Shown here in pieces: positions 1 through 60,874 of a stretch of 60,874 bases of DNA. The DNA is from Gammaproteobacteria bacterium (lineage in GTDB: Bacteria > Pseudomonadota > Gammaproteobacteria > Arenicellales > JAANXG01): positions 1 to 60,874 of the forward strand of contig JAHEIO010000016.1 in the NCBI GenBank assembly GCA_024639325.1, read 5' to 3'. The stretch's first letter is position 1, and every line of letters starts with the position of its first letter. The notes beneath the pieces are model-generated. The model did not search any database and had not been told where the DNA came from. It saw only the letters and a list, made by a program, of their open reading frames with translations. The translations under genes were made by a program, and so were the position numbers.

Positions 1-33
1 TAGCCCGCATTTCTCACCGGGCGGGCTAATTAG
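1..33 (+). repeat. CTAG-type dispersed repeat, copy 1 (terminal box only)
   Basis: The window opens with the terminal box of the dispersed repeat (TAGCCCGCATTTCTCACC at 1-18). It is followed by GCGGGCTA at 21-28, an exact inverted copy of bases 1-8, giving an 8-bp stem with a 12-base loop. The copy is very short, or is the edge of one lying mostly outside the window. The leading TAG could be the stop codon of an unseen upstream gene, as at other copies. Confidence 0.6.
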
Positions 34-4025: not shown

Positions 4026-4069
4026 CCCGCATTTCTCACCAGCATCCTGGTGGGAAAGGGACGTCAAGC
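4026..4069 (+). repeat. CTAG-type dispersed repeat, copy 2
   Basis: CCCGCATTTCTCACCAG at 4026-4042 is the terminal box. It is followed by a short spacer and CGTCAAGC (4062-4069), which matches the same distance and sequence in the copy at 60722. Box and spacer also form a local hairpin, CACCAG-catc-CTGGTG. The copy fills the gap between the yqeY stop and the dnaG start. The yqeY stop codon (TGA, 4064-4066 on the minus strand) lies inside the CGTCAAGC segment. Confidence 0.6.
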
Positions 4070-7287: not shown

Positions 7288-7802
7288 CCCGCATTTACCT
7301 GAGTATCGGCAGCAACATAGAGCGTGACGCAAATCTGCGCAGCTGTATTCAACAGCTGCACGAACTGTTCCGGCCGTTGACCCTGTCCAGCGTGTACCGA
7401 ACCCGGGCGGTCGGCTTTGACGGGGACGACTTTTACAATATGGCCGTGGGCCTCGACAGCGCGCTGCCGGTCGAAGCAGTTCAGGCGTGTGTTCGGAAGA
7501 TCGAGGATGCACACGGCAGGGAAAGGCTTATCGGCAAGTATACGTCGCGGCCGCTGGACATCGATCTGCTGCTGTATGGAGATTTGAAAAAGCACAGCGG
7601 TTCCCTTGACGTGCCGAGACGGGAGATACTGGACCACGCCTTCGTACTGCAGCCTTTGAGTGAAATCGCGCCGTCGCTGCGTCACCCTGAAACCGGGCAA
7701 TCCATCGGCGAGATATGGCAAAGTCTTGATGCGACCGGGCAGCCAACCAGGCGAATCGATTTCGAATTCGATCTGCCCCTTGACGAGCCAGCGCCGGGAT
7801 AG
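7284..7802 (+). CDS. folK: 2-amino-4-hydroxy-6-hydroxymethyldihydropteridine pyrophosphokinase FolK
   Basis: Pyrophosphorylates hydroxymethyl-dihydropterin, the step after FolB. 172 residues, family-typical, with IYLSIGSNI (4-12), SSVYRTRAVG (35-44) and the catalytic/Mg-binding signature RPLDIDLLLYG (89-99). The GTG start at 7284 overlaps the folB stop (GTGA). The last five codons (EPAPG) and the stop TAG coincide with the inner segment of a dispersed-repeat copy, so the tail may be repeat-derived. Confidence 0.96.
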   Translation: MTRIYLSIGSNIERDANLRSCIQQLHELFRPLTLSSVYRTRAVGFDGDDFYNMAVGLDSALPVEAVQACVRKIEDAHGRERLIGKYTSRPLDIDLLLYGDLKKHSGSLDVPRREILDHAFVLQPLSEIAPSLRHPETGQSIGEIWQSLDATGQPTRRIDFEFDLPLDEPAPG

Positions 7803-7862
7803 GCGTTTCCCATGCAATACTTGCAAAGCCTCCCCAGCCGCCTGGTGAGAAGTGCGGACTAG
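7787..7862 (-). repeat. CTAG-type dispersed repeat, copy 3 (internally deleted)
   Basis: Bases 7787-7810 are an exact 24-base reverse-complement match to 60814-60837. The far end (7836-7862) reads CCTGGTGAGAAGTGCGG then ACTAG, the inverted terminal box. Compared with the copy at 60722, roughly 45 bases of the core and tail are missing between these parts. The element begins inside the folK C-terminal codons and fills the folK-SDR gap. Confidence 0.75.
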
Positions 7863-8724: not shown

Positions 8725-8886
8725 TTAGCCCCCATGTCTCGCCCGGCGGCTGTCTATATGTGTCCAAGCCATGCGCCTCACCCCTTGGGAGCCGGCGGGA
8801 ACATGGTCTTCAGGGGCATTTTTCGGCCTGTCGTCCATCGGCACCCGCCTTACGCCATCGCTCGGGATCGGGGTGAGGCATGCCGG
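8725..8886 (+). repeat. CTAG-type dispersed repeat, copy 4 (both ends present)
   Basis: About 160 bp with both terminal boxes. The left end is TTAGCCCCCATGTCTCGCC (8725-8743). The right end, inverted, is GGTGAGGCATGCCGG (8872-8886). Next to the right end is the GC-rich module CCATCGCTCGGGATC (8855-8869), shared with the copies at 17281 and 57396. Near the left end GTCTATATGTGTCCAAG (8752-8768) matches the core edge of the copy at 60722. The right end overlaps the start codon region of the MidA-like gene. Confidence 0.7.
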
Positions 8887-10046
8887 CCATGATTTCCGGG
8901 TTGCCGTTGCCCGCACCTGGTCCCGAGGAGGAAAGCTTCCGTGGGAAGCTGACGCGCGTGATCGTCGATGAGATCGAAAGCTCCGGGGGGGTGATCGCTT
9001 TTTCGCGCTTCATGGAGCTAGCGCTTTACGAACCGCGCTACGGGTACTACGCATCCGGTTTGCGAAAGTTTGGAGAGCGCGGTGATTTCGTTACTGCCCC
9101 CGAACTGGGCGATCTGTTTTCGAGGTGTCTGGTTAAGCTGGTCGTACACGTCCTGGATCAACTGGAGCATGGTGAGGTTTTGGAGGTGGGCGCCGGTTCG
9201 GGCATCATGGCTGCGCAACTGCTGCAAGCCCTGGACGGGCAGGGCAAGCGGCCCTGCCGATATCTGATCCTGGAGATCAGCGATGATCTGAGGCGGCGTC
9301 AGCGGGAAATGATCGAGGCGCGTGCTCCGCGGTGCCTCGATAGCGTTCGGTGGCTGACGCAACTGCCGGAAAGCTTTGCGGGCGTGATCCTGGCCAATGA
9401 GGTGGCCGATGCTCTGCCCGTGGACCGATTTTGCGTGTGCCAGGGCCGAGTACAAGGCATCGGAGTGGGCCGGCACGACGACGGCTTTACGGACAGACCC
9501 TACGCGCCCCGGGGTGCCGGCTGGGATCAGTTGAGCAGGCTGGAGCTTGCCGAGGGTTACTGCTCGGAAATCGGTTTGCATGCCCAGGCGTGGATGCGGA
9601 CTTTGTGCCGGACGCTCGATGCCGGTGTTTTCATCGTGGTCGACTACGGATATCCGGCATCAGAGTTGTATCACCCGATGCGCAGCGATGGAACGTTGAT
9701 GTGCCACTATCACCACCACGCACATAGAAATCCTTATACACACGTCGGGTTACAGGATATTACGGCGCATGTTGATTTCAGTGCCCTCGCCAGATGCGCA
9801 GGTGAATCAGGGCAGTCCGTGCTGGGATTTACGTCCCAGGCGTCGTTTCTTCTGTCCCTGGGCATACTTGATCTGATTGAATCGAAACCGGACGCGTCCC
9901 ACGCCGACTCGATACTCCTGGCACAGCAGGTCAAGCGTCTGACCCTCTCCGAAATGGGAGAATCGTTCAAAGCCCTTGCGGTCGGCCCCGCTGATGGCGA
10001 ATCACTGCCTGGTTTTACCCTCGCCGACCACCGCAATCGTTTGTAG
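8880..10046 (+). CDS. SAM-dependent methyltransferase, MidA/NDUFAF7 (DUF185) family
   Basis: 388 residues. The N-terminal part has the family signature MELALYEPRYGYYASG (about 44-59) and DFVTAPELGDLFSRC (about 69-83). The SAM-binding motif LEVGAGSGIMAAQLL follows near residues 100-114. The mitochondrial relative NDUFAF7 methylates an arginine of complex I; the bacterial role is not settled. The start is ATG at 8880, with ATG 8889 equally possible. The upstream GGTGAGG and the 8880 ATG lie in the end of a dispersed repeat, which would therefore supply the ribosome binding site. uppP follows three bases after the stop. Confidence 0.88.
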   Translation: MPAMISGLPLPAPGPEEESFRGKLTRVIVDEIESSGGVIAFSRFMELALYEPRYGYYASGLRKFGERGDFVTAPELGDLFSRCLVKLVVHVLDQLEHGEVLEVGAGSGIMAAQLLQALDGQGKRPCRYLILEISDDLRRRQREMIEARAPRCLDSVRWLTQLPESFAGVILANEVADALPVDRFCVCQGRVQGIGVGRHDDGFTDRPYAPRGAGWDQLSRLELAEGYCSEIGLHAQAWMRTLCRTLDAGVFIVVDYGYPASELYHPMRSDGTLMCHYHHHAHRNPYTHVGLQDITAHVDFSALARCAGESGQSVLGFTSQASFLLSLGILDLIESKPDASHADSILLAQQVKRLTLSEMGESFKALAVGPADGESLPGFTLADHRNRL

Positions 10047-15889: not shown

Positions 15890-17260
15890 ATGGTTGATTT
15901 GACGCAGTCACGCAGTGAATCGACGTGGCGAGAGTCGCTCGGCGTATATACCCAACCCAGGGTGATTGCCATGCTCTTTCTGGGATTCTCCGCGGGACTG
16001 CCTTTGCTGTTGGTATTCGGAACCTTATCGGCCTGGCTGCGGGAGGCCGGCGTCGATCGCAGCACCATCGGATACATTTCCTGGGTGGCGATTCTTTACG
16101 CCTTCAAATTCGCCTGGGCTCCGCTGGTGGACAGGGTGCCTATACCCCTGGTTTCCTCCGCACTTGGTCACCGGCGAAGCTGGATGCTTCTGGCGCAGAT
16201 CGGGGTGATAGGCGCATTGACCATGATGGCGACCAGCGACCCCGATACCCAGCTGTCGATACTGGTCGCCGCCGCACTTCTGGCCGCGTTTTCTTCCGCG
16301 ACCCAGGATATCAGCATCGATGCCTGGCGCATCGAGGCGGCGGTGGTCGAGTGGCAGGGTGCGATGGCTGCCACCTATCAGATAGGGTACCGCGTCGGCA
16401 TGATAGCGGCGGGCGCGGGCGCCCTGTATCTGGCGGAATTTTATTCCTGGTCCGTGGCTTACAACTGCATGGCACTGCTGATGCTTGTCGGCGTCGTTAC
16501 GACATTCTGCATCTTCGAGCCCGAGCGTCAGGGCGCCGGCGGGGCCTGGATGGAGGAGGAGCGCGTGGTCGATTTTCTCGAGCGCTATGCCCATCTGCCT
16601 CACCGGTTACGATCCGTAGCGGCTTGGTTCATCGGCGCGGTGGTTTGTCCGTTTACAGATTTCTTTGCGCGGAACGGCAGAGTTGCGCTGCTGATACTGG
16701 CATTTATCGGTGTATTCCGCCTCAGTGACATCACCATGGGTGTCATGGCCAATCCCTTTTATATCGATATGGGATATACCAAATCGGACATTGCCAGCGT
16801 AACCAAGGTGTTCGGGTTGATCATGACCATGGGGGGCGCTGTTCTGGGCGGGCTTCTGGTTGCCCGATTCGGTGTGATGCGGATCCTGCTGCTGAGTGCG
16901 TTCATGGTGGCCTTGACCAACCTGACTTTCGCCTGGCTGGCGTCGCAGACGCCGGAGATCAGCTACCTGGTGATTGTAATCAGTGCCGACAATCTGAGCG
17001 GCGGTATGGCCGGCTCGGCTTTTATCGCGTATTTGTCCGGATTGACCAACCGGGCATATACCGCCACGCAGTATGCCTTATTCAGTTCCTTGATGCTTCT
17101 CCCCGCGAAATTCCTGGGCGGGTTTTCGGGGAATATCGTCGACGCGGAGGGCTATGTTTTCTTCTTCAGCTACGCCGCAGGCCTGGGCATACCGGCGATA
17201 CTACTGGTATCGTATCTGCTGTACAGACAGAAGCAGGAAACTCAAGGAAACCTCCGATAA
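15890..17260 (+). CDS. AmpG-like MFS permease (muropeptide uptake)
   Basis: 456 residues with twelve or more hydrophobic segments. AmpG carries GlcNAc-anhydroMurNAc muropeptides from periplasm to cytoplasm for cell-wall recycling. Visible signatures are LGFSAGLPLLLVFGTLSAWL near the N terminus, the loop ALGHRRSWMLLAQ after TM2-3, and ATQDISIDAWRIE (about residues 139-151), which is characteristic of AmpG. I chose ATG at 15890; an in-frame TTG at 15854 adds 12 unlikely residues. The 140-bp gap after xthA is AT-rich and probably holds its promoter. Confidence 0.87.
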   Translation: MVDLTQSRSESTWRESLGVYTQPRVIAMLFLGFSAGLPLLLVFGTLSAWLREAGVDRSTIGYISWVAILYAFKFAWAPLVDRVPIPLVSSALGHRRSWMLLAQIGVIGALTMMATSDPDTQLSILVAAALLAAFSSATQDISIDAWRIEAAVVEWQGAMAATYQIGYRVGMIAAGAGALYLAEFYSWSVAYNCMALLMLVGVVTTFCIFEPERQGAGGAWMEEERVVDFLERYAHLPHRLRSVAAWFIGAVVCPFTDFFARNGRVALLILAFIGVFRLSDITMGVMANPFYIDMGYTKSDIASVTKVFGLIMTMGGAVLGGLLVARFGVMRILLLSAFMVALTNLTFAWLASQTPEISYLVIVISADNLSGGMAGSAFIAYLSGLTNRAYTATQYALFSSLMLLPAKFLGGFSGNIVDAEGYVFFFSYAAGLGIPAILLVSYLLYRQKQETQGNLR

Positions 17261-17280
17261 TCGCGGCGGGGCGCGGTCGT

Positions 17281-17336
17281 TCATCGGCACCTGTCCTGCG
17301 CCATCGCTCGGGATCCTGTTGAGAAATGCGGGTTAG
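17281..17336 (-). repeat. CTAG-type dispersed repeat, copy 5 (translated as a C terminus)
   Basis: On the minus strand CTAACCCGCATTTCTCAAC (17336-17318) is the terminal box, followed by AGGATCCCGAGCGATGGCG and CAGGTGCCGATGA. This is the same order and spacing as the copy at 57396. The whole copy lies inside the 3' end of the dynamin-like gene and provides its last ~17 codons and TGA stop. Confidence 0.8.
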
Positions 17337-19260
17337 CTGATTGCTGAATACTCGCTAATATGCTGTCGATAAACTTTGCCTGCTTGTGCAGGTTCTTCAG
17401 GTCCTTGACTATTTCTTGCTCCCGTTGGCGCAGCGCGGCGTGGTTGTTGCGCAATTTGTCCAGGTTCTCCAGGCGCCGGTCGATCAGATCCTTGTGTTCC
17501 CTGATGCACTTGTATATCGGCATCAGCACCGCCTTGGCCCAGTATCTGGTCGCTCCGTTGCAGTCCTCGAAGATCACCCGCGCTCGGCTCACCAAAACGA
17601 TGAAGAATTTCTTCACCACGAAGTATTGTTCCGTCATCATCATCGCCTTGGAGGTTCTAAAAGCCTCCGCTTCTTCATGCAAACTCTCGTATTGCCGCAT
17701 GAAATCCTTGGTGGAAAATCGGACGGGCTTGTGGATTGGTAACCCATATTCTCCATGGAATCGATTGTATATTTGTTCGACCAGACGGCGTATTTTCTCC
17801 GACCGCGCTTCGACCCGTTTCAGGTCTGCGAAAGTGCCGCCGAAAAACGTCTCCATTCCCTGTCTCACGCCAGGGGTCGTCCAGCTGTTGTTCATCGCGT
17901 AGCGGGTCCTGGCTATGAGCTGATCGAAACGGGTCATGCTCAACAGACTTGTCATTTTTCTGACCTGCTCGGACAACAGGCGGCGGGTTATATCGAAGCT
18001 CTGGACCTCGGCATCATAGGTGTTCTTCTGTTTTTTGAGCTTGGTTGACATCTCGTCGATTAGGTCGACGCTTTTATTATCCAACTGGCGCAGTTCCTCG
18101 AGCTCGGTTTCCAGATTTTCGATTTGATAGCGTATCAGCTCCTCGGATTCCTGAACGACGAGTCCGATTTCACTTGCCACCTTCTCGCAGATCATTTTTT
18201 GTCGGTTCTTGACAGCGATCGTCGACAGCGTCCGTTCCAATGCGTGCAGTCCGCTTCTGGCTACGAGCTCGTCGCCTTTTCGAATCTTCCCGATCAGGCC
18301 CTTCCGCGCGGACACGGGGAACACCTTGTCGCGGCTGATCTGGAGCATCTTGTGCGTTCTTTCAACCTGTCGATCGATGAAGCCCTGGGTCCTGTCGGGA
18401 CTTTCGAGTTCATCCCACAGGGTGTCGACTTTGTTCAATGCCGCAAGACGATTTTCCGGATTGCGGCCCGTGGCGGGGCACACGTGCTTTTTCCAGATTT
18501 CCATGTCTGTTCGGGTAACGCCGGTGTCTGCCGCCAGCACAAAAAGAATGGCATGGGCATTGGGTAGCATGCCCAGCGTCAGCTCCGGTTCGGCCCCAAG
18601 TGCATTGAGGCCGGGTGTGTCCAGTACGACCAGGCCCTGCTCCAGCAGGCGATGAGGGTAATTGACGATGGCATGCCGCCAGACCGGGACCTCGACGTGA
18701 ACTTCGCCGCTGGGCAGTTCCGAGATCATGCCATCAAGCCCGAGTTCGTGTGCCTGCCGTTTATCTATTTTCTTGCTCCTCAGTATCTGTTTGAGGGTCT
18801 TCGCCATGGCCTCGGGGGAATCCAGTTCCAATGGGAGGGTGGTCCAGTTGACCGCCTTGTGCTTGAGTTCCGAGATTGACATGGCTGATTTGCGGGTCTC
18901 TATCGGCAGCAGGCGTATACACGGGGGCATCTTGACGTCGTATCGAATTTCCGTCGGGCACATGGTCGTCCGGCCCGGCGTCGAGGGTAGCAGTCGACGA
19001 TCGTAGTCGGAAAAGAAAATGGCGTTGATCAGCTCGGTTTTACCCCTTGAGAATTCGCCGACCAGAGCGATTGTAACGGCATCGCCACGGAGTTCTTCCA
19101 CCAGCTCCAGCAGATTGAGTTCCTGTTCGCTGTCGAGTCGGCGGTATGAACCGCACCATTCCCGATAGGATTCCAATGCCCTTGCCAGAGTAGTGCTCCA
19201 CACGCCGTAGTCGGTCAGTTGGCGGTCAAACCCGTCGACAGTGGAAGCCGTATCCTGCAT
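17281..19260 (-). CDS. Bacterial dynamin-like GTPase
   Basis: 659 residues. GTPase signatures are the P-loop GEFSRGKT (68-75), TTMCPTE around the switch-I Thr98/99, DTPG (214-217) and NKVD (276-279). Two long helical, coiled-coil-rich stretches follow, at about 340-460 and 560-640. Such proteins remodel or bind membranes; no specific role can be read here. The last ~17 residues (NPHF...DRCR) are encoded by a dispersed repeat in the same frame, so the natural C terminus probably ended near residue 642. It lies 47 bp behind yggT in the same direction, likely part of yggS-proC-yggT. Confidence 0.85.
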   Translation of the reverse strand: MQDTASTVDGFDRQLTDYGVWSTTLARALESYREWCGSYRRLDSEQELNLLELVEELRGDAVTIALVGEFSRGKTELINAIFFSDYDRRLLPSTPGRTTMCPTEIRYDVKMPPCIRLLPIETRKSAMSISELKHKAVNWTTLPLELDSPEAMAKTLKQILRSKKIDKRQAHELGLDGMISELPSGEVHVEVPVWRHAIVNYPHRLLEQGLVVLDTPGLNALGAEPELTLGMLPNAHAILFVLAADTGVTRTDMEIWKKHVCPATGRNPENRLAALNKVDTLWDELESPDRTQGFIDRQVERTHKMLQISRDKVFPVSARKGLIGKIRKGDELVARSGLHALERTLSTIAVKNRQKMICEKVASEIGLVVQESEELIRYQIENLETELEELRQLDNKSVDLIDEMSTKLKKQKNTYDAEVQSFDITRRLLSEQVRKMTSLLSMTRFDQLIARTRYAMNNSWTTPGVRQGMETFFGGTFADLKRVEARSEKIRRLVEQIYNRFHGEYGLPIHKPVRFSTKDFMRQYESLHEEAEAFRTSKAMMMTEQYFVVKKFFIVLVSRARVIFEDCNGATRYWAKAVLMPIYKCIREHKDLIDRRLENLDKLRNNHAALRQREQEIVKDLKNLHKQAKFIDSILASIQQSANPHFSTGSRAMAQDRCR

Positions 19261-27781: not shown

Positions 27782-27809
27782 CGGGATCCTGATGAGAAAT
27801 GCGGGCTAG
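27782..27809 (-). repeat. CTAG-type dispersed repeat, copy 6 (short)
   Basis: On the minus strand CTAGCCCGCATTTCTCATC (27809-27791) is the terminal box, followed by AGGATCCCG. The tonB stop codon is the TAG of this CTAG. The continuation up to 27757 forms an imperfect inverted repeat (ATCAGG at both ends) and departs from the longer copies after ATCCCG. Confidence 0.75.
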
Positions 27810-28708
27810 CGGCTGGTAAGTTTGTTGCCCCGGACGAACTGCCAGGTACGGGTAATATGCAGAATGTCGACCTCCTCCCTGATATTTCTCGGGAACGGCT
27901 TGAAGGGAGCCGATAGTCTTACGATTCTGACCGCGGCATCGTCCAGTACTTTGAATCCGGACGGCCTGATGATATTGATGGCGTGGATACTTCCATTCGC
28001 CGTGATCTCTACATCCAGTACGAGTTGCCCGGTGATTTTTTGTTTTTTGGCCTGTTCCGGGTAGTTTAGGTTGCCCACCGTTTCAACTTTTGCCCGCCAT
28101 GCTTCCATATACGTTGCATACTTGTACTCCTTGGTACGGGCGCTCAGAAACTTGCGGCGAGGGCGCTTCTGATATTCATCCCAAAACTGGCTTATTTCCG
28201 CACTTAGCCGGGAGCGTTCCTGTTGCGTGATCTGTTTCTGGATCAAACCCGTCTTTGCCTTTTGTTCGGCCGCACGTTTCTTTTGCTTCTGGGGATCCAG
28301 CATGGCAAGTTTGGTCGGCGCGTCCACGTCCTGGGTCAGTACCCTGGGTTCCGGCCTGGCCGAATCCGGCAGGGGCGGCGACTCGATACGGGCAACGGGT
28401 AGGCTTTTAGACGTCACCGGCTTCGGTTCCATGGGCAGCGGGCTTCTTGCAATCACGGGTGCGTCGGAATCGCCGCCGCCATCCTGATTGGCCTGGGCCA
28501 GGAAATCCGCCTTGTCGGGCTCGGTGTCGCTGCGCGAATTGACCAGGGTGATTTCGAGGGTGGGCAGCGGGTCGGTTTGCGAGTTCAGTTGGGGCACCGT
28601 GAAGCTGATGCCCAGGATTATCACCATGTGAAACAGGATCGAGCCAAATGTGGTCAGGCCAAGCCGATCGCTGCTGGTAAAACCCGGGATGTTTTCGGCA
28701 AGTTCCAA
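27806..28708 (-). CDS. tonB: TonB family energy transducer
   Basis: 300 residues. A single N-terminal membrane helix spans about 20-42. A proline-rich periplasmic linker covers about 45-120, a charged helical stretch 135-200, and a C-terminal TonB domain 205-295 (YPEQAKKQKITGQLVLDVEI...GSIHAINI). TonB transmits proton-motive energy to outer-membrane receptors. In P. aeruginosa the gene at this place (tonB3) is needed for twitching motility, which fits its position before gshB and the pil genes. The start is TTG at 28708. The stop TAG belongs to a dispersed repeat. No exbB/exbD partner is in the window. Confidence 0.9.
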   Translation of the reverse strand: MELAENIPGFTSSDRLGLTTFGSILFHMVIILGISFTVPQLNSQTDPLPTLEITLVNSRSDTEPDKADFLAQANQDGGGDSDAPVIARSPLPMEPKPVTSKSLPVARIESPPLPDSARPEPRVLTQDVDAPTKLAMLDPQKQKKRAAEQKAKTGLIQKQITQQERSRLSAEISQFWDEYQKRPRRKFLSARTKEYKYATYMEAWRAKVETVGNLNYPEQAKKQKITGQLVLDVEITANGSIHAINIIRPSGFKVLDDAAVRIVRLSAPFKPFPRNIREEVDILHITRTWQFVRGNKLTSR

Positions 28709-49133: not shown

Positions 49134-49170
49134 GGGGTGGGCGTTTCCAAAACACGCTGTTTTTGAGTCG
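49134..49170 (+). repeat. CTAG-type dispersed repeat, copy 7 (core only)
   Basis: GGGCGTTTCCAAAACAC followed by GCTGTTTTTGAGTCG. Over 37 aligned positions, 30 match the core of the copy at 57396. Neither terminal box is present, so this is a remnant or a separately mobile core. It lies between the amidase stop and the upstream region of the small membrane gene pair. Confidence 0.55.
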
Positions 49171-49198
49171 AAAGCAAATAATCTGGCATGGTAAGTCC

Positions 49199-50557
49199 TT
49201 AGCAAGAATGTAAAGCCGCCCGGTGAGAATTGCCGGCGAGGCGCTCCACCAACCAGCGGGCTGTCCTGAAAAGCCTGGCGTCATCACCCGTGGCGCCGAC
49301 CAGCTGTGCGCCCAGGGGCATTTCGGCGGGACCCTGGAGAACGGGCAGATTGAGCGCCGGCGTGCCGCACAGCGTCCAGATCGTGCAAAATGCAGGGTCT
49401 CCGGTGGACGATATGTCTGGAGCTTCGCCAGGCGTAGACGGCGTGAGTAACGCATCGTAGTCGACGAAATACTCATCCAAAACCGTGATGTATTCCTGAA
49501 TACGGTCGACGGCTTCATTGTATTCCGTCGCCAACACGCGCTGGCCCTGCTCGATCATGTCCCGCAGCTTCTTGCTTATTTTTTCGGCGCCTCTGCGGTA
49601 CAGGCTAGCAAAACTTCCTGCCAGGCCGGCCTCCATGATGGCCTTGTGGTCGTTAAGTGCTGTGTTGAATGCCGTCGGCAGATCCACCACCTCGACTCGA
49701 CCACCGGCATGGTCGATCAGCTCCCTGAAGGCGTCCTTGGTGGCCTGCTCGGCCCGATCCCACGCCGGTGTGCGCACGAAAGCCAGCCGCGGCTCCACGG
49801 GAGGCGGTTCGGCCAGCGTGCGTGAAATCGCCGGCCGGGCCCGGGGGCGCATGTCCGGGTCGTCCTGATCGTAAACCATCAAAATATCTGAGATTAGGGC
49901 CAGGTCGTCCAGATTGCGTGCGAACACACCCACGGTATCCAGCGGACGCGACTGGGCCAGAACGCCGCGGCGGGAGATTCTGCCGAAGCTCGGCTTGAAC
50001 CCGTATACGCCGCAAAACGACGCGGGGCGGATTACCGAACCGTTGGTCTGGGTGCCGACGCTCAGGGGGGTCATGAATGCCGCCACGGCGGCTGCGGATC
50101 CGCTCGATGAGCCGCCGGGCGTGCGTCCAACGTCGTGCGGATTGCGGGTTTTGCCGGGGGTGTATACCGCCAATTCAGTAGTTACCGTCTTGCCCAGTAT
50201 GATGGCGCCCGCCTCGCGCAGAGTCGCCACCAGCGCGGCGTCTTTTGACGGCGTCCTGCCGGCGCATAGAGCGGTCCCGCACTCGGTGGGCAGATCGAAG
50301 GTATCGATAATGTCCTTGATGCCCACGGGAACCCCGTGCAGGGGCCCGGTAGCATGACCTCGCCGTCGCGATTCGTCGGCTAGCCGGGCTTGTTCAAGCG
50401 CGAGTTCGGCGTCTACATGCACCCAGGCGCCGATCTCGTCGTCGAACTGGTCGATTCTGTCGAGACAAGCCTGGATCAGTTCCCGTGCGGAAATCTTGCC
50501 CGAACGTATTGCCTCCGCGGCCTGCCGCGCGCCGAGGTGGACGCTATCGATGGCCAA
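49199..50557 (-). CDS. Amidase signature family hydrolase
   Basis: 452 residues. The Ser-Ser-Lys machinery of the family is complete: Lys81 in VGIKDIID, the serine-rich loop PGGSSSGSAAAVA (147-159), and the nucleophile Ser174 in TQTNGSVIRPAS. Members hydrolyse many amides or are GatA; GatA is unlikely here because there is no gatC/gatB neighbour. The start is TTG at 50557. It lies 15 bp behind dctM, so it is probably co-transcribed with the TRAP transporter and acts on the imported compound. The substrate cannot be read from sequence. Confidence 0.88.
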   Translation of the reverse strand: MAIDSVHLGARQAAEAIRSGKISARELIQACLDRIDQFDDEIGAWVHVDAELALEQARLADESRRRGHATGPLHGVPVGIKDIIDTFDLPTECGTALCAGRTPSKDAALVATLREAGAIILGKTVTTELAVYTPGKTRNPHDVGRTPGGSSSGSAAAVAAFMTPLSVGTQTNGSVIRPASFCGVYGFKPSFGRISRRGVLAQSRPLDTVGVFARNLDDLALISDILMVYDQDDPDMRPRARPAISRTLAEPPPVEPRLAFVRTPAWDRAEQATKDAFRELIDHAGGRVEVVDLPTAFNTALNDHKAIMEAGLAGSFASLYRRGAEKISKKLRDMIEQGQRVLATEYNEAVDRIQEYITVLDEYFVDYDALLTPSTPGEAPDISSTGDPAFCTIWTLCGTPALNLPVLQGPAEMPLGAQLVGATGDDARLFRTARWLVERLAGNSHRAALHSC

Positions 50558-56986: not shown

Positions 56987-57033
56987 GTGGTCAAAGATGG
57001 GTATAAGACCGAAAAAAACCTGGAGTGGCGACG

Positions 57034-57399
57034 ATGAAACAAATGATCCTGATGGCCGCAGCACTCGGAATATTGGGTATCTCGGGTCCTGCCGCAGCGG
57101 CCAGCGAGTGGCGCTACACGGTTTCCGCCACATCCAGCGCGGCTGCCAACAGGCTGGTGGCCACGGAGCCGCCTTCCACCGAGCAGATGCAAACGGCGGC
57201 ATCTTCATCGACGGACCGTGAGCCGTATACCGGCAGCGTACCGACGAACTACATGTCCATGACAACGGTCACCGCGCAGTTCGGTGATCCTGGCAAACAG
57301 GCCCCCGCCGTTGGGCAACCACCGATTACGCGCTGGTACTACCCTCGTTACACGGTCTACTTCGAGCACGACCGGGTTATCATATCCGTGATCGACTAG
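57034..57399 (+). CDS. Small secreted protein, function unknown
   Basis: 121 residues, not confidently recognised. An N-terminal signal peptide (ILMAAALGILGISGPAAA) predicts export. The C-terminal half, QFGDPGKQAPAVG and RWYYPRYTVYFEHDRVI, resembles the strand pattern of SmpA/BamE-like domains, where a G-x-P turn precedes W-x-Y and VYFE. The resemblance is suggestive only. I chose ATG at 57034, with GGAG upstream, over GTG 57025. The stop TAG is the start of a dispersed repeat (CTAG 57396-57399). Confidence 0.7.
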   Translation: MKQMILMAAALGILGISGPAAAASEWRYTVSATSSAAANRLVATEPPSTEQMQTAASSSTDREPYTGSVPTNYMSMTTVTAQFGDPGKQAPAVGQPPITRWYYPRYTVYFEHDRVIISVID

Positions 57400-57560
57400 T
57401 CGGCATTTCTCCCCAGGATCCCGAGCGATGGCGCAGGTCAGGTGCCGATTAACGCCGGGATGGGCGCTTCCAAAACACACTATTTTTTGGGCGAATCCAT
57501 TTACTTCAATGTTTGCAATGCCCACAAAGCATCCATAGCCGCCTTGTTCCAGCATTCTGG
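57396..57560 (+). repeat. CTAG-type dispersed repeat, copy 8 (reference full-length copy)
   Basis: The best full-length copy. Terminal box CTAGTCGGCATTTCTCCCC (57396-57414). GC-rich module ATCCCGAGCGATGGCG (57418-57433) and GGTGCCGATTAACG (57441-57454). Core GGGCGCTTCCAAAACACAC (57462-57480) with its hairpin partner TTTTGGGC. Tail TCAATGTTTGCAATGC (57506-57521) and CCATAGCCGCC (57533-57543), then a decayed right box. From the core on it aligns with the reverse complement of the copy at 60722. Confidence 0.8.
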
Positions 57561-57568
57561 CCAGCAGT

Positions 57569-57598
57569 CTGACTCGTAAGGCATACTCCGTTTATAAT
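57569..57598 (+). promoter_or_regulatory. Sigma-70 promoter of the LolA-like/MMPL pair (possibly leaderless)
   Basis: CTGACT (57569-57574), an 18-bp spacer and a perfect TATAAT (57593-57598). Seven bases downstream of the -10 lies the ATG at 57605, so the predicted transcript begins at or next to the start codon. Confidence 0.6.
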
Positions 57599-58272: not shown

Positions 58273-60678
58273 ATGCCTGATAGATCATTGCTTGTCGGGC
58301 TGAGCGCGAGGGTGCTTCTGGCATCTGTTCTGGCCGCATCGCTTTGGGCGATCGCGACGCAGTTCAAGGTAGTTACCGATGTCGGTGTATTCCTGCCGGC
58401 CGTAACCACCTCAGCCGAGAAAATCCTGATCACGCAACTCGGCAAGGGTGCGACCTCGAAGCTGCTGTTCGTTGCCATCGCCGGTGCCGACGAGCAGTCG
58501 CTGCGCCAGGTGAATACGGCGCTGGCGGCCAGGCTGAGGGAATCCGAAAAATTTGCCCGTGTCCTCAATGGCGAGCACGACCTGAACGATGCGGACAGGG
58601 ATCTGATATTCAGGAACCGGTACCTCGTCGCTCCTTTGGACGTGGCCCGCAGGTTCAGCGTGGAAGGCCTGCGGGAATCCCTGCAGGAGCGGCTGCGGGG
58701 CCTGGCGTCTTCAACCGCACTGTTCGAGAAAAGTTTCCTTGCCAAGGACCCGGTGGGTGCTTCCAAAATATTCATCGACCAGCTCCTTGTCAGTCAAAGT
58801 GAAAGCGGTCCGCTGCGCATCGACAACGTCTGGATGTCCCGGGACCGAAAACGCAGTCTGCTGATACTGGAGATGCAGGCCGACGCGTTCAACCTGGACG
58901 GCCAGGCGGCCGCGGTGGCTGAACTCAGGGAACAGCTGGAAATGCTGGGCAAAGGCGCCCTCACGTTTTCGATAACGGGCCCCGGTGCGTTCACCGTGGA
59001 GGCGCGCGACACGATTCGTGCCGACGTGAGGCTGCTGACGATACTGGCGGTAGTGTTCGTGACCACGTTTCTCTATCTGGCATTTAGGTCACTGACTTTC
59101 CTGATGCTCGTTACCGTTCCGCTGGTTCTTGGCGTCACAGCAGCGATCGGCGCGGTGCTCCTGTTTTTCGGATCGATCCACGGTATTACCCTCGCATTTG
59201 GTGTGACCCTCACCGGCGTCGCAGTGGATTACCCGATTCACCTGGTATCGCAAATGCCGGGCACCGATTCCAAGGCCTGGGTGCATATCAAGCGCATATG
59301 GCCGACTTTGCGGCTGGGTGTAATCACCACGACCATCGCCTACGCGTCTCTTGTATTCTCCGATTTCCAGGGGCTGACACAACTGGGTTTGTTCACCGTG
59401 ACCGGATTGCTGACGGCGGCCGCCGTAACGCGATGGATTCTGCCGCATATCATCCCTGGCCGCGTCGCAATGAGCCACGGGCTGGCGCAATTGCACCAGA
59501 GTCTCGAGAAGCTGGGACGGCGGGCACCCCAGGCCCGTGTATGGATGGCAATGCTGGTGATACTGGCAACGGCCTACCTGGTCCTCGTAGATCGACCGCT
59601 GTGGGACGACCGGCTGGATTCTCTTAGCCCGATTCCGCAGGCGCTGCGTGCCGAAGACAAGAGCCTGCGCCAGGACCTTGGAATGTGGTCCGGCGCAAAA
59701 CTGATGGCGATCATTGCTCCGGATGCCGAATCGGCGCTGCGTGCGAGCGAGATCCTGATGCCGCGGCTGGACAAATTTATCGAGCAGGGGCTGCTATCGG
59801 AATATGACGCCGCGGCGCAGTATTTGCCCAGCCGAAATCTCCAGCAGCAGCGTCAATCAATGCTGCCATCCGCATCCGAATTGCGCAGCCGATTGCAGGA
59901 GGCGCTGGATGGACTTCCCTTCAAGGACGCAATCTTCGAACCCTTTATCAGTGATGTGGACGCGTCAAGGGGTGTACAACCCGTTACCCTGGACACCCTG
60001 CGCGATACCACGCTGGTGCCGCTGTTGTCGCCATTGTTGTTCGAAATGGAAGAGCAGTGGGTTGCTCCCGTTCTGCTGCACGGCGTGACCAATCCCGAGC
60101 GGATGTCAGCGCTTGCGAGCAATAGCGGTGGCGTGGAGGTCTCCTACCTGGATCTCAAACAGGCAACCAACGATATGATGCACGCCGCAATGTCCCACGT
60201 GGTGCGGCTGTTGTGCTGGGGTGCGCTGTTCATCTACCTGGTTCTCGCGATGAATTTCCGAAACCTTCTCAAGCCGCTGTACATACTGGTTCCAACCGTC
60301 GCGTCGGTGGTGGTTACCAGCGCGATTCTGATTGCGTCCGGCATTCAGTTGACGGTTTTCCACCTGGTTTCGCTTTTGCTTGTTGTCGGCCTGGGTCTCG
60401 ACTACGCGCTTTTTTTCAATCGCTTGTCACATTCCAAGGAGGAATGGGCAACAACGTTCAAAGCGCTGTGGGTATGCTGCATCACCACCGCGCTCGTATT
60501 CGGCATGCTTCTCTTGTCAAGCACCCCGCCCTTGCAGGCGGTGGGATTGACGGTATCCATCGGCGCCGGCCTGTGTCTGATTTTTGGCGCGGTGTGGTCT
60601 ACCGCGGCCCCCCGGATCAGTCGCAAAAAGAAAAAACGTCGGGCCCGCCAGCATATTGCAACAGTATCCCGGCGCTGA
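58273..60678 (+). CDS. MMPL/RND family membrane exporter
   Basis: 801 residues, two repeats of a membrane unit: one helix near 10-28, a large periplasmic domain, then five helices (about 255-400), and the same again, with the second set near 655-785. The TM4-equivalents GVTLTGVAVDYPIHL and LVVGLGLDYALFFNRLS carry the Asp-Tyr pair used for proton coupling in MMPL proteins. Relatives beside LolA-like genes export lipids or aryl polyene precursors. No such biosynthetic genes other than fabA-fabB are nearby. The stop TGA lies in repeat sequence. Confidence 0.88.
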   Translation: MPDRSLLVGLSARVLLASVLAASLWAIATQFKVVTDVGVFLPAVTTSAEKILITQLGKGATSKLLFVAIAGADEQSLRQVNTALAARLRESEKFARVLNGEHDLNDADRDLIFRNRYLVAPLDVARRFSVEGLRESLQERLRGLASSTALFEKSFLAKDPVGASKIFIDQLLVSQSESGPLRIDNVWMSRDRKRSLLILEMQADAFNLDGQAAAVAELREQLEMLGKGALTFSITGPGAFTVEARDTIRADVRLLTILAVVFVTTFLYLAFRSLTFLMLVTVPLVLGVTAAIGAVLLFFGSIHGITLAFGVTLTGVAVDYPIHLVSQMPGTDSKAWVHIKRIWPTLRLGVITTTIAYASLVFSDFQGLTQLGLFTVTGLLTAAAVTRWILPHIIPGRVAMSHGLAQLHQSLEKLGRRAPQARVWMAMLVILATAYLVLVDRPLWDDRLDSLSPIPQALRAEDKSLRQDLGMWSGAKLMAIIAPDAESALRASEILMPRLDKFIEQGLLSEYDAAAQYLPSRNLQQQRQSMLPSASELRSRLQEALDGLPFKDAIFEPFISDVDASRGVQPVTLDTLRDTTLVPLLSPLLFEMEEQWVAPVLLHGVTNPERMSALASNSGGVEVSYLDLKQATNDMMHAAMSHVVRLLCWGALFIYLVLAMNFRNLLKPLYILVPTVASVVVTSAILIASGIQLTVFHLVSLLLVVGLGLDYALFFNRLSHSKEEWATTFKALWVCCITTALVFGMLLLSSTPPLQAVGLTVSIGAGLCLIFGAVWSTAAPRISRKKKKRRARQHIATVSRR

Positions 60679-60716
60679 CTTGTTCAGCTTTGCCTGGGCT
60701 TGGACTTTATTCGGAC
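60664..60716 (+). repeat. CTAG-type dispersed repeat, copy 9 (distal fragment)
   Basis: TATCCCGGCGCTGACTTGT (60665-60683) and GGGCTTGGACTTTATTCG (60697-60714) match, in the same order, TATCCCGGCGCTGGCTGGT (60824-60842) and GGGCTTCATTCG (60860-60871) of the next copy. The first segment supplies the last codons and TGA stop of the MMPL gene. A short hairpin covaries between the two (CTGA/TCAG here, CTGG/CCAG there). Confidence 0.5.
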
Positions 60717-60721
60717 CGTAG

Positions 60722-60874
60722 CTAGTCCGCATTTCTCGCCAGGCGGCCATGGAATCTCGTCAAGCATGGCAAACATCGAGGTCTATGGATTTGTCCAAGA
60801 AACAGTGTGTCTTGGAAACGCCTATCCCGGCGCTGGCTGGTCCAGGCCCCGATGTACTTGGGCTTCATTCGATC
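60722..60874 (+). repeat. CTAG-type dispersed repeat, copy 10 (inverted, runs off the window)
   Basis: Begins CTAGTCCGCATTTCTCGCC (60722-60740), then GGCGGCCATGG and CGTCAAGCATGGCAAACATC. The core AAGAAACAGTGTGTCTTGG (60797-60815) and the 24-base segment shared exactly with folK's end (60814-60837) follow. Relative to the copy at 57396 it is inverted, so its first box corresponds to the right end of that copy. The remainder lies beyond the window. Confidence 0.8.

Follow-up and report, generated by a model that had tools for sequence, protein, structure and literature searches.

What moves the short repeat that recurs through this stretch of gammaproteobacterial DNA, and does its interior amount to more than debris? 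MITEs tend to be regarded as passive remnants of transposons. The stretch analysed here (the window, 60,874 nucleotides) belongs to a genome of 4.69 Mb in 352 contigs (G000), and an earlier note had described in it about ten copies of a MITE-like repeat, possibly moved by an IS630- or IS5-like transposase. We find that the repeat family is real, that it is MITE-like and non-autonomous, and that the first reading had missed a conserved structured arm in one half of the element. The reading that we favour, with moderate confidence, is that these are non-autonomous elements mobilised by IS1380-family transposases and carrying an arm that is selected as an RNA or as a one-strand hairpin.

Results

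Copies in the window and in the genome

Boxes and modules of the repeat are present, within a few bases, at the positions first listed, and several of those copies were recovered in a window-wide repeat search. The figure of about ten holds as a count for the window and not for the genome, where the box YCCGCATTTCTCRCC occurs 249 times at up to one mismatch (124 forward and 125 reverse) against a single occurrence of the reversed control (0 and 1), well beyond chance. The window copies are not equivalent, and include halves, single ends, derivatives and one canonical element cut by the contig end. The contig starts with an end of the type named here TIR1 (1-26, forward strand); a tRNA-Met gene lies at 245-321 on the minus strand. 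At 4026-4062 (forward) there is a tiny derivative made of ends only, about 37 bp from terminal repeat to terminal repeat, and 7771-7862 (forward) is a 3' remnant with the end of the core arm, the B half, the right TIR1 and CTAG. The minus-strand copy at 8729-8886 (158 bp) does have both ends, as had been reported, and is decayed. A single 5' (A) end with TIR1 and a TTAG flank lies at 17257-17337 on the minus strand, where the model of the arm described below (R1) matches weakly (16.5 bits, E 0.058), and a lone A-side TIR1 end lies at 27782-27809, also on the minus strand, its CTAG containing the stop codon of a minus-strand ORF (27806-28708). At 49134-49236 (forward) only the 3' half, the B half with the right TIR1 end, is found.

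The copy from which the note started (57396-57547, forward) consists of CTAG, the left TIR1, the start of the arm, the B half and a decayed right end, and its CTAG contains the stop codon of the ORF at 57025-57399. It had been taken as near full length, which is true of its span and not of its interior, intact elements being mostly 237-239 or 305 bp. When 57380-57580 was searched against the genome, 56 matches were obtained, all of which except the self-match covered one of two modules; these adjoin in the 57396 copy and stand apart in other copies, and the sequence at 57400-57547 is thus a deletion derivative without most of the core arm (R1, 22 bits). At the far end of the window a TIR1 element is nested in an older one. 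The older is a minus-strand remnant of a sister family (60647-60721) with ends of a second type, TIR2, and the 3' half of the core arm; the younger, CTAG followed by a canonical TIR1 element with the B half and then a partial arm (60722-60874, minus strand, cut by the contig end), interrupts it at the apical loop from 60726 on. Uninterrupted relatives of the TIR2 element were found at two other loci (L338 and L348).

Element anatomy and target duplication

Boxes were matched in inverted orientation in the stretches fetched around copies and in searched loci (about 400 kb), which gave 45 paired elements and 80 single boxes. The paired elements are 77-680 bp long, with 18 at 237-239 bp and 11 at 305 bp, and complete elements are mostly 238 or 305 bp with inverted ends and a 4-bp YTAR duplication; as in MITEs, they are short (under about 600 bp), have terminal inverted repeats and are putatively non-coding. 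In 40 of the 45 the two boxes together have at most two mismatches; the few pairings with four to six mismatches may be due to chance, as may the two elements that could not be oriented by module. Identical flanking 4-mers were found in 31 of the 45 (CTAG 26, CTAA 2, TTAG 2, TTAA 1), and CTAA/CTAA and TTAG/TTAG are true direct repeats, which would not be expected of a 4-mer that was part of the inverted ends. The flanks of the other 14 are non-identical, one being CTAA/TTAG, which speaks for the opposite, and 13 of other kinds. CTAG also flanks 41 of the 80 single boxes, in stretches where it makes up 0.075% of the 4-mers. The proposed non-autonomous family with terminal inverted repeats at CTAG/CTAA-type targets is supported by the 31 duplications, and what had been termed AT-targeting is better described as YTAR, mostly CTAG.

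Among the 18 members of the 238 class the mean pairwise identity is 0.935 (0.803-0.992), and for the 11 of the 305 class it is 0.953. Elements of the 305 class (for example L171:195-388) have an insertion of about 67 nt, hairpin-like in sequence, within the core arm, and internal deletions are frequent in the family. In an intact element the 5' half is arm A (about 128 nt) and the 3' half is arm B, and single-sequence folds gave, by eye, an end helix and two arms in nine of ten examples.

Mobility

A sister genome (G001) with 92-96% identity in long matches to two compared window stretches gave a mixed answer on presence and absence. The copies at 4026, 8729 and 17281 are common to both genomes; the 57396 site differs between them by about 110 bp and the 49134 site by about 80 bp, neither being a clean empty site. 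Outside the window, the G000 copy at C113:11266-11383 is absent from G001, its spot being occupied by another repeat, and the copy at C281:127583 is common to G001 and about 70 bp shorter there; none of the sites compared with G001 yielded a clean empty YTAR site. Within G000, a second dispersed repeat, containing GGGCGCCGCTCCTACA, occurs on contig C113 (L124:2171-2262 and 8928-8972); it has many matches in G001 and G003 and lies beside a MITE site, at which G001 has an expanded version of it.

An exact 15-mer was found in 12 of 80 genomes, G000 included, with 81 occurrences in G001 and 212 in a genome of another family (G025), and none in G002 and G003, which are of the same genus as G000. 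An exact 19-mer was found in at least 116 stretches of public genomes, and the titles among the matches listed name Gammaproteobacteria, Acidobacteria, Planctomycetota, Nitrospira and others. This patchy distribution fits mobility, for which the other grounds are the duplications and the nesting. In a genome from another family of the order (G076), an element at L049:1501-1738 has 98.7% identity to copies in G000 and is flanked on either side by CTAG, reflecting either recent transfer or contamination of a MAG.

A candidate partner of the IS1380 family

IS1380 is a family of DDE insertion sequences related to piggyBac. As far as the terminal sequences go, the best-matching partner of the small elements would be IS1380 rather than IS630 or IS5. 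A profile of the IS1380 transposase (PF13701) matched in seven of 17 genomes (G000 and 16 relatives), five above the cut-off, and did not match in G000 itself, where the partner is missing, unassembled or lost; because of that negative search the small elements are classed, by their ends, as putatively IS1380-mobilised and not as IS1380 insertion sequences. In one relative (G008) an IS1380-type element has ends CCTGGATTTCTCACCG with CTAG on both sides, and in another (G004) one end is CCCGCATTTCTCACCG, the other has three changes, and CTAG is present on one side. The G004 transposase, searched class-wide, had matches at E 1e-60 or better in nine of 369 genomes. Among the further IS1380-type elements taken from this search and from plasmid records, L085, L087, L096, L098 and L099 have ends CCCGCATTTCTCAC with CTAG (L099 with one change at one end), the ends of L086 are close to CCCGCATTTCTCAC, and the end scan found no such ends in IS1380A (L097) and L100. 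Altogether, in seven loci (L067, L068, L085, L087, L096, L098, L099) the ends are identical or almost identical to those of the small elements, and CTAG is present on at least one side. L096 and L098 have one transposase in common, and these two and L099, all on plasmids, are annotated in their records as IS1380 family transposase.

The small elements share with IS1380-family insertion sequences, such as those on plasmids of Pseudomonas (P. putida pKF715A) and Stutzerimonas (the S. zhaodongensis megaplasmid), the terminal repeats CCCGCATTTCTCAC and a CTAG on either side; unlike them, the plasmid elements are about 1.66-1.77 kb long, encode a transposase and have no structured arm. When 70 interiors were compared with 14 IS1380 loci by blastn, no shared interior was found (best E 0.029), and in 25 IS1380-type loci, some of them partial, R1 had no significant match inside any element, the one strong match being to a separate neighbouring element in L069 and two others being non-significant. 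Birth of the small elements from an IS1380 insertion sequence by internal deletion was rejected for want of any interior in common with these loci.

The suggested search for an insertion sequence with the same ends led to IS1380-type elements in other genomes and on plasmids, and the suggestion of an IS630 or IS5 transposase is not supported by the terminal sequences. The target does contain TA, and one IS5 subgroup uses 4-bp CTAR targets, both of which would suit such an origin; set against the seven IS1380-type loci whose ends are the same or almost so, we regard it as very improbable and have put it aside. We think equally little of a REP/REPIN-type family moved by a RAYT (Y1) transposase, which would account for elements that are short, dispersed, palindromic and of high copy number, and would leave unexplained the 4-bp YTAR duplication and the ends held in common with IS1380 elements. 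The idea that a transposase works in trans gains support from these matching ends, from which we infer the action itself.

End types and their switching

In eleven loci of G003 the interior of these elements recurs (73-83% identical where it matches) between ends such as CCCGYATATTGCATC, that is TIR2, which was found in 11 of 80 genomes, among them G000 with 22. In a family of another class of the same phylum (f218) the ends mostly resemble CCCGGATTTTTCATG, or TIR3, and the arms at L351 and L355 lie between inverted ends close to TGGCCTGYAACGGATA and TCCTGTGATCCA, which are none of the known types. The arm thus occurs with at least three end types. Ends were typed by whichever of four motifs scored highest, with a minimum of 11 matches in 15. 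Of the 72 distinct arms, 56 were typed at both ends, and in none of these are TIR1, TIR2 and TIR3 mixed.

A tree was built from 62 arms, after removal of arms outside 120-135 nt and of the insertion-bearing rows L175, L039, L221, L268 and L267 (the insertion-bearing row L251, identical to a dropped one, was included). The end type changes at least nine times on this tree, and the starred branches alone force five changes each for TIR1 and TIR2, exact counts being rough because 30 of the 59 inner branches are open; a single clade was rejected by the AU test for both TIR1 (p 0.00012) and TIR2 (p 0.00016). The main end types differ at only three to four of 15 positions, and the switches could be stepwise mutation instead of exchange. 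On the side of the transposases, those of IS1380-type elements with TIR2- or TIR3-like ends (L066, L088, L089) grouped apart from the TIR1 ones with a support of 98/99, in a tree of 13 rows in which five of nine inner branches are open.

The conserved arm

Alignment of elements across families revealed a conserved 5' half, and a 3' half (B) that is unrelated by eye. The conserved half, arm A, is predicted to be a rod of 128 nt with conserved internal loops. A first alignment (A1) kept 26 of 46 arms, leaving out those outside 124-134 nt, the L224 and L305 rows and near-copies. RNAalifold placed 38 pairs in it, of which 22 have changes on both sides; 93.2% of the cells at these positions are paired, against 22-40% in slid controls, and 110 cells changed on both sides, against a mean of 34.2 in shuffled alignments and 2-22 in slid ones, none of 500 shuffles reaching any of five measures. 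From the arm we built the model R1, which had 76 matches in 92 loci. Among the 72 distinct matches (A2), 32 of the 38 pairs are compensated, with 519 both-side cells against 146 and a covariation score of 0.543 against 0.175 for shuffled and at most 0.087 for slid alignments. Eighteen distant arms that were not in the model (A3), aligned by MAFFT without it, folded de novo into a similar rod with 29 of 38 pairs compensated. The A2, A3 and G-U counts lean toward the strand and structure of the model, since R1 or the fold of that strand chose them. In A1 there are 72 G-U cells against 14 A-C cells, or 39 against 14 without the two pairs richest in G-U; this excess points to folding of one strand, subject to the bias that the prediction of the structure was made on that same strand. 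A basal UGGC/GCCA stem and the loops adjoining it are near-invariant in both A1 and A3. The alignments show a predicted structure of arm A that is conserved, leans to one strand, and persists across several end types and in distant bacteria.

It might be argued that these are ordinary IS1380-mobilised MITEs with a passive interior, in which palindrome repair or copying between the arms mimics compensation and no RNA is involved. MITE transcripts in general fold into stable stem-loops, according to the review PMC10969869, and the present family is rich in internal deletions; both speak for this reading. Copying from arm to arm would, however, erase mismatches, and the loops beside the basal stem are near-invariant; G-U exceeds A-C; and the B half is unrelated between families, as judged by eye, despite sitting in the same elements. 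We hold a passive interior to be unlikely. A one-strand DNA hairpin, such as a protein-bound structure extruded in transposition or replication, would give the same covariation and the same strand lean, and the folds of whole elements, with paired ends and two arms, agree with it. Against such a need stand the IS1380-type loci without the arm, whose transposase requires none for its own insertion sequence, and we judge the DNA hairpin quite unlikely. Our preference remains for an arm selected in its folded form; it may act as an RNA, judging from the modelled structure.

Where the arm occurs

R1 had 55 matches at E 0.01 or better in the 76 loci fetched from G000, and 32 at E 0.1 or better in 99 of the at least 116 loci found by pattern. 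The hosts of the latter are MAGs of Gammaproteobacteria and MAGs assigned to Acidobacteriota (Candidatus Versatilivorator, isolate jk18xAbins.46); many hosts being MAGs, single placements are possibly binning errors. Among 398 genomes of the phylum the arm was found in nine, namely G000, one other of its class and seven of f218. One arm-bearing element had no blastn match in plasmid and phage collections and a second had none in the plasmid collection; an arm-like pattern in viral contigs gave one match, which lay within an ORF, had no R1 match and was discarded. No Rfam family matches the arm above the gathering score. Rfam searches returned nothing but a tRNA in the window, a tRNA in nine distant loci and three sub-threshold matches in 12 loci at E up to 10.

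Discussion

The following mechanism would bring these observations together. IS1380-family transposases would act in trans on the elements, the transposase binding the inverted ends CCCGCATTTCTCACC, inserting at YTAR (mostly CTAG) and duplicating 4 bp. Selection would act on arm A as a folded molecule of use to the element, either a transcribed RNA or a one-strand hairpin. Our best guess, a tentative one, is that a conserved host protein might bind or process the arm, with read-through transcripts of insertions made less harmful. Some insertions adjoin stop codons. Of the 45 paired elements, 17 have a flanking 4-mer that contains the stop codon of an ORF of at least 100 codons, compared with 23 of 128 CTAG sites elsewhere (Fisher p 0.013), an enrichment that may be due to selection only, as the background includes intragenic CTAG, where insertions are selected against. 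At the 16 such sites that could be oriented (one of the 17 could not), the arm points one way in seven and the other way in nine; a role in the 3'UTR of the sense strand was rejected on this ground, since with the arm in either orientation nothing ties it to the sense mRNA. One element was examined for promoter-like and terminator-like sites and had neither.

A broader proposal, to which we would give slightly less than an even chance, is that of a mobile structured RNA family, in which the arm found in Gammaproteobacteria, in another class and in Acidobacteriota MAGs is cargo of non-autonomous elements that repeatedly acquired the terminal repeats of different lineages of IS1380 transposases, at both ends at once, as the remainder of the element turned over.

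Like the bacterial MITEs treated in the review PMC10969869, the elements are short, putatively non-coding and of high copy number, with inverted ends, target duplication and probable mobilisation in trans; unlike those MITEs, they have an arm whose conservation extends to distant bacteria and spans several end types. The review speaks of stable folds and of sRNAs as a possibility; IS1380 is nowhere named in it. A conserved non-coding core spread by a DNA transposon is also found in the SINE conserved domain (PMC6887750), in that case in a eukaryotic SINE system. Our search of the open-licence literature found no description of the present repeat family.

HEARO/omega-RNA elements and IStrons likewise have a conserved RNA that travels on a mobile element. 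They are of the IS200/IS605 type, and the present arm differs from them in having no match in Rfam.

The elements are more than ordinary repeat debris, as the shape of the arm is conserved in distant bacteria even where the ends differ. Half of the element carries the statistical signature of a functional fold that has been maintained across large distances and through changes of ends, which makes it testable how a transposon parasite follows a changing transposase. If the arm is an RNA, it would represent a class of non-coding RNA absent from Rfam and present in dozens of copies in one genome; if it is not, the family would caution strongly against inferring RNAs from covariation when mobile DNA is palindromic.
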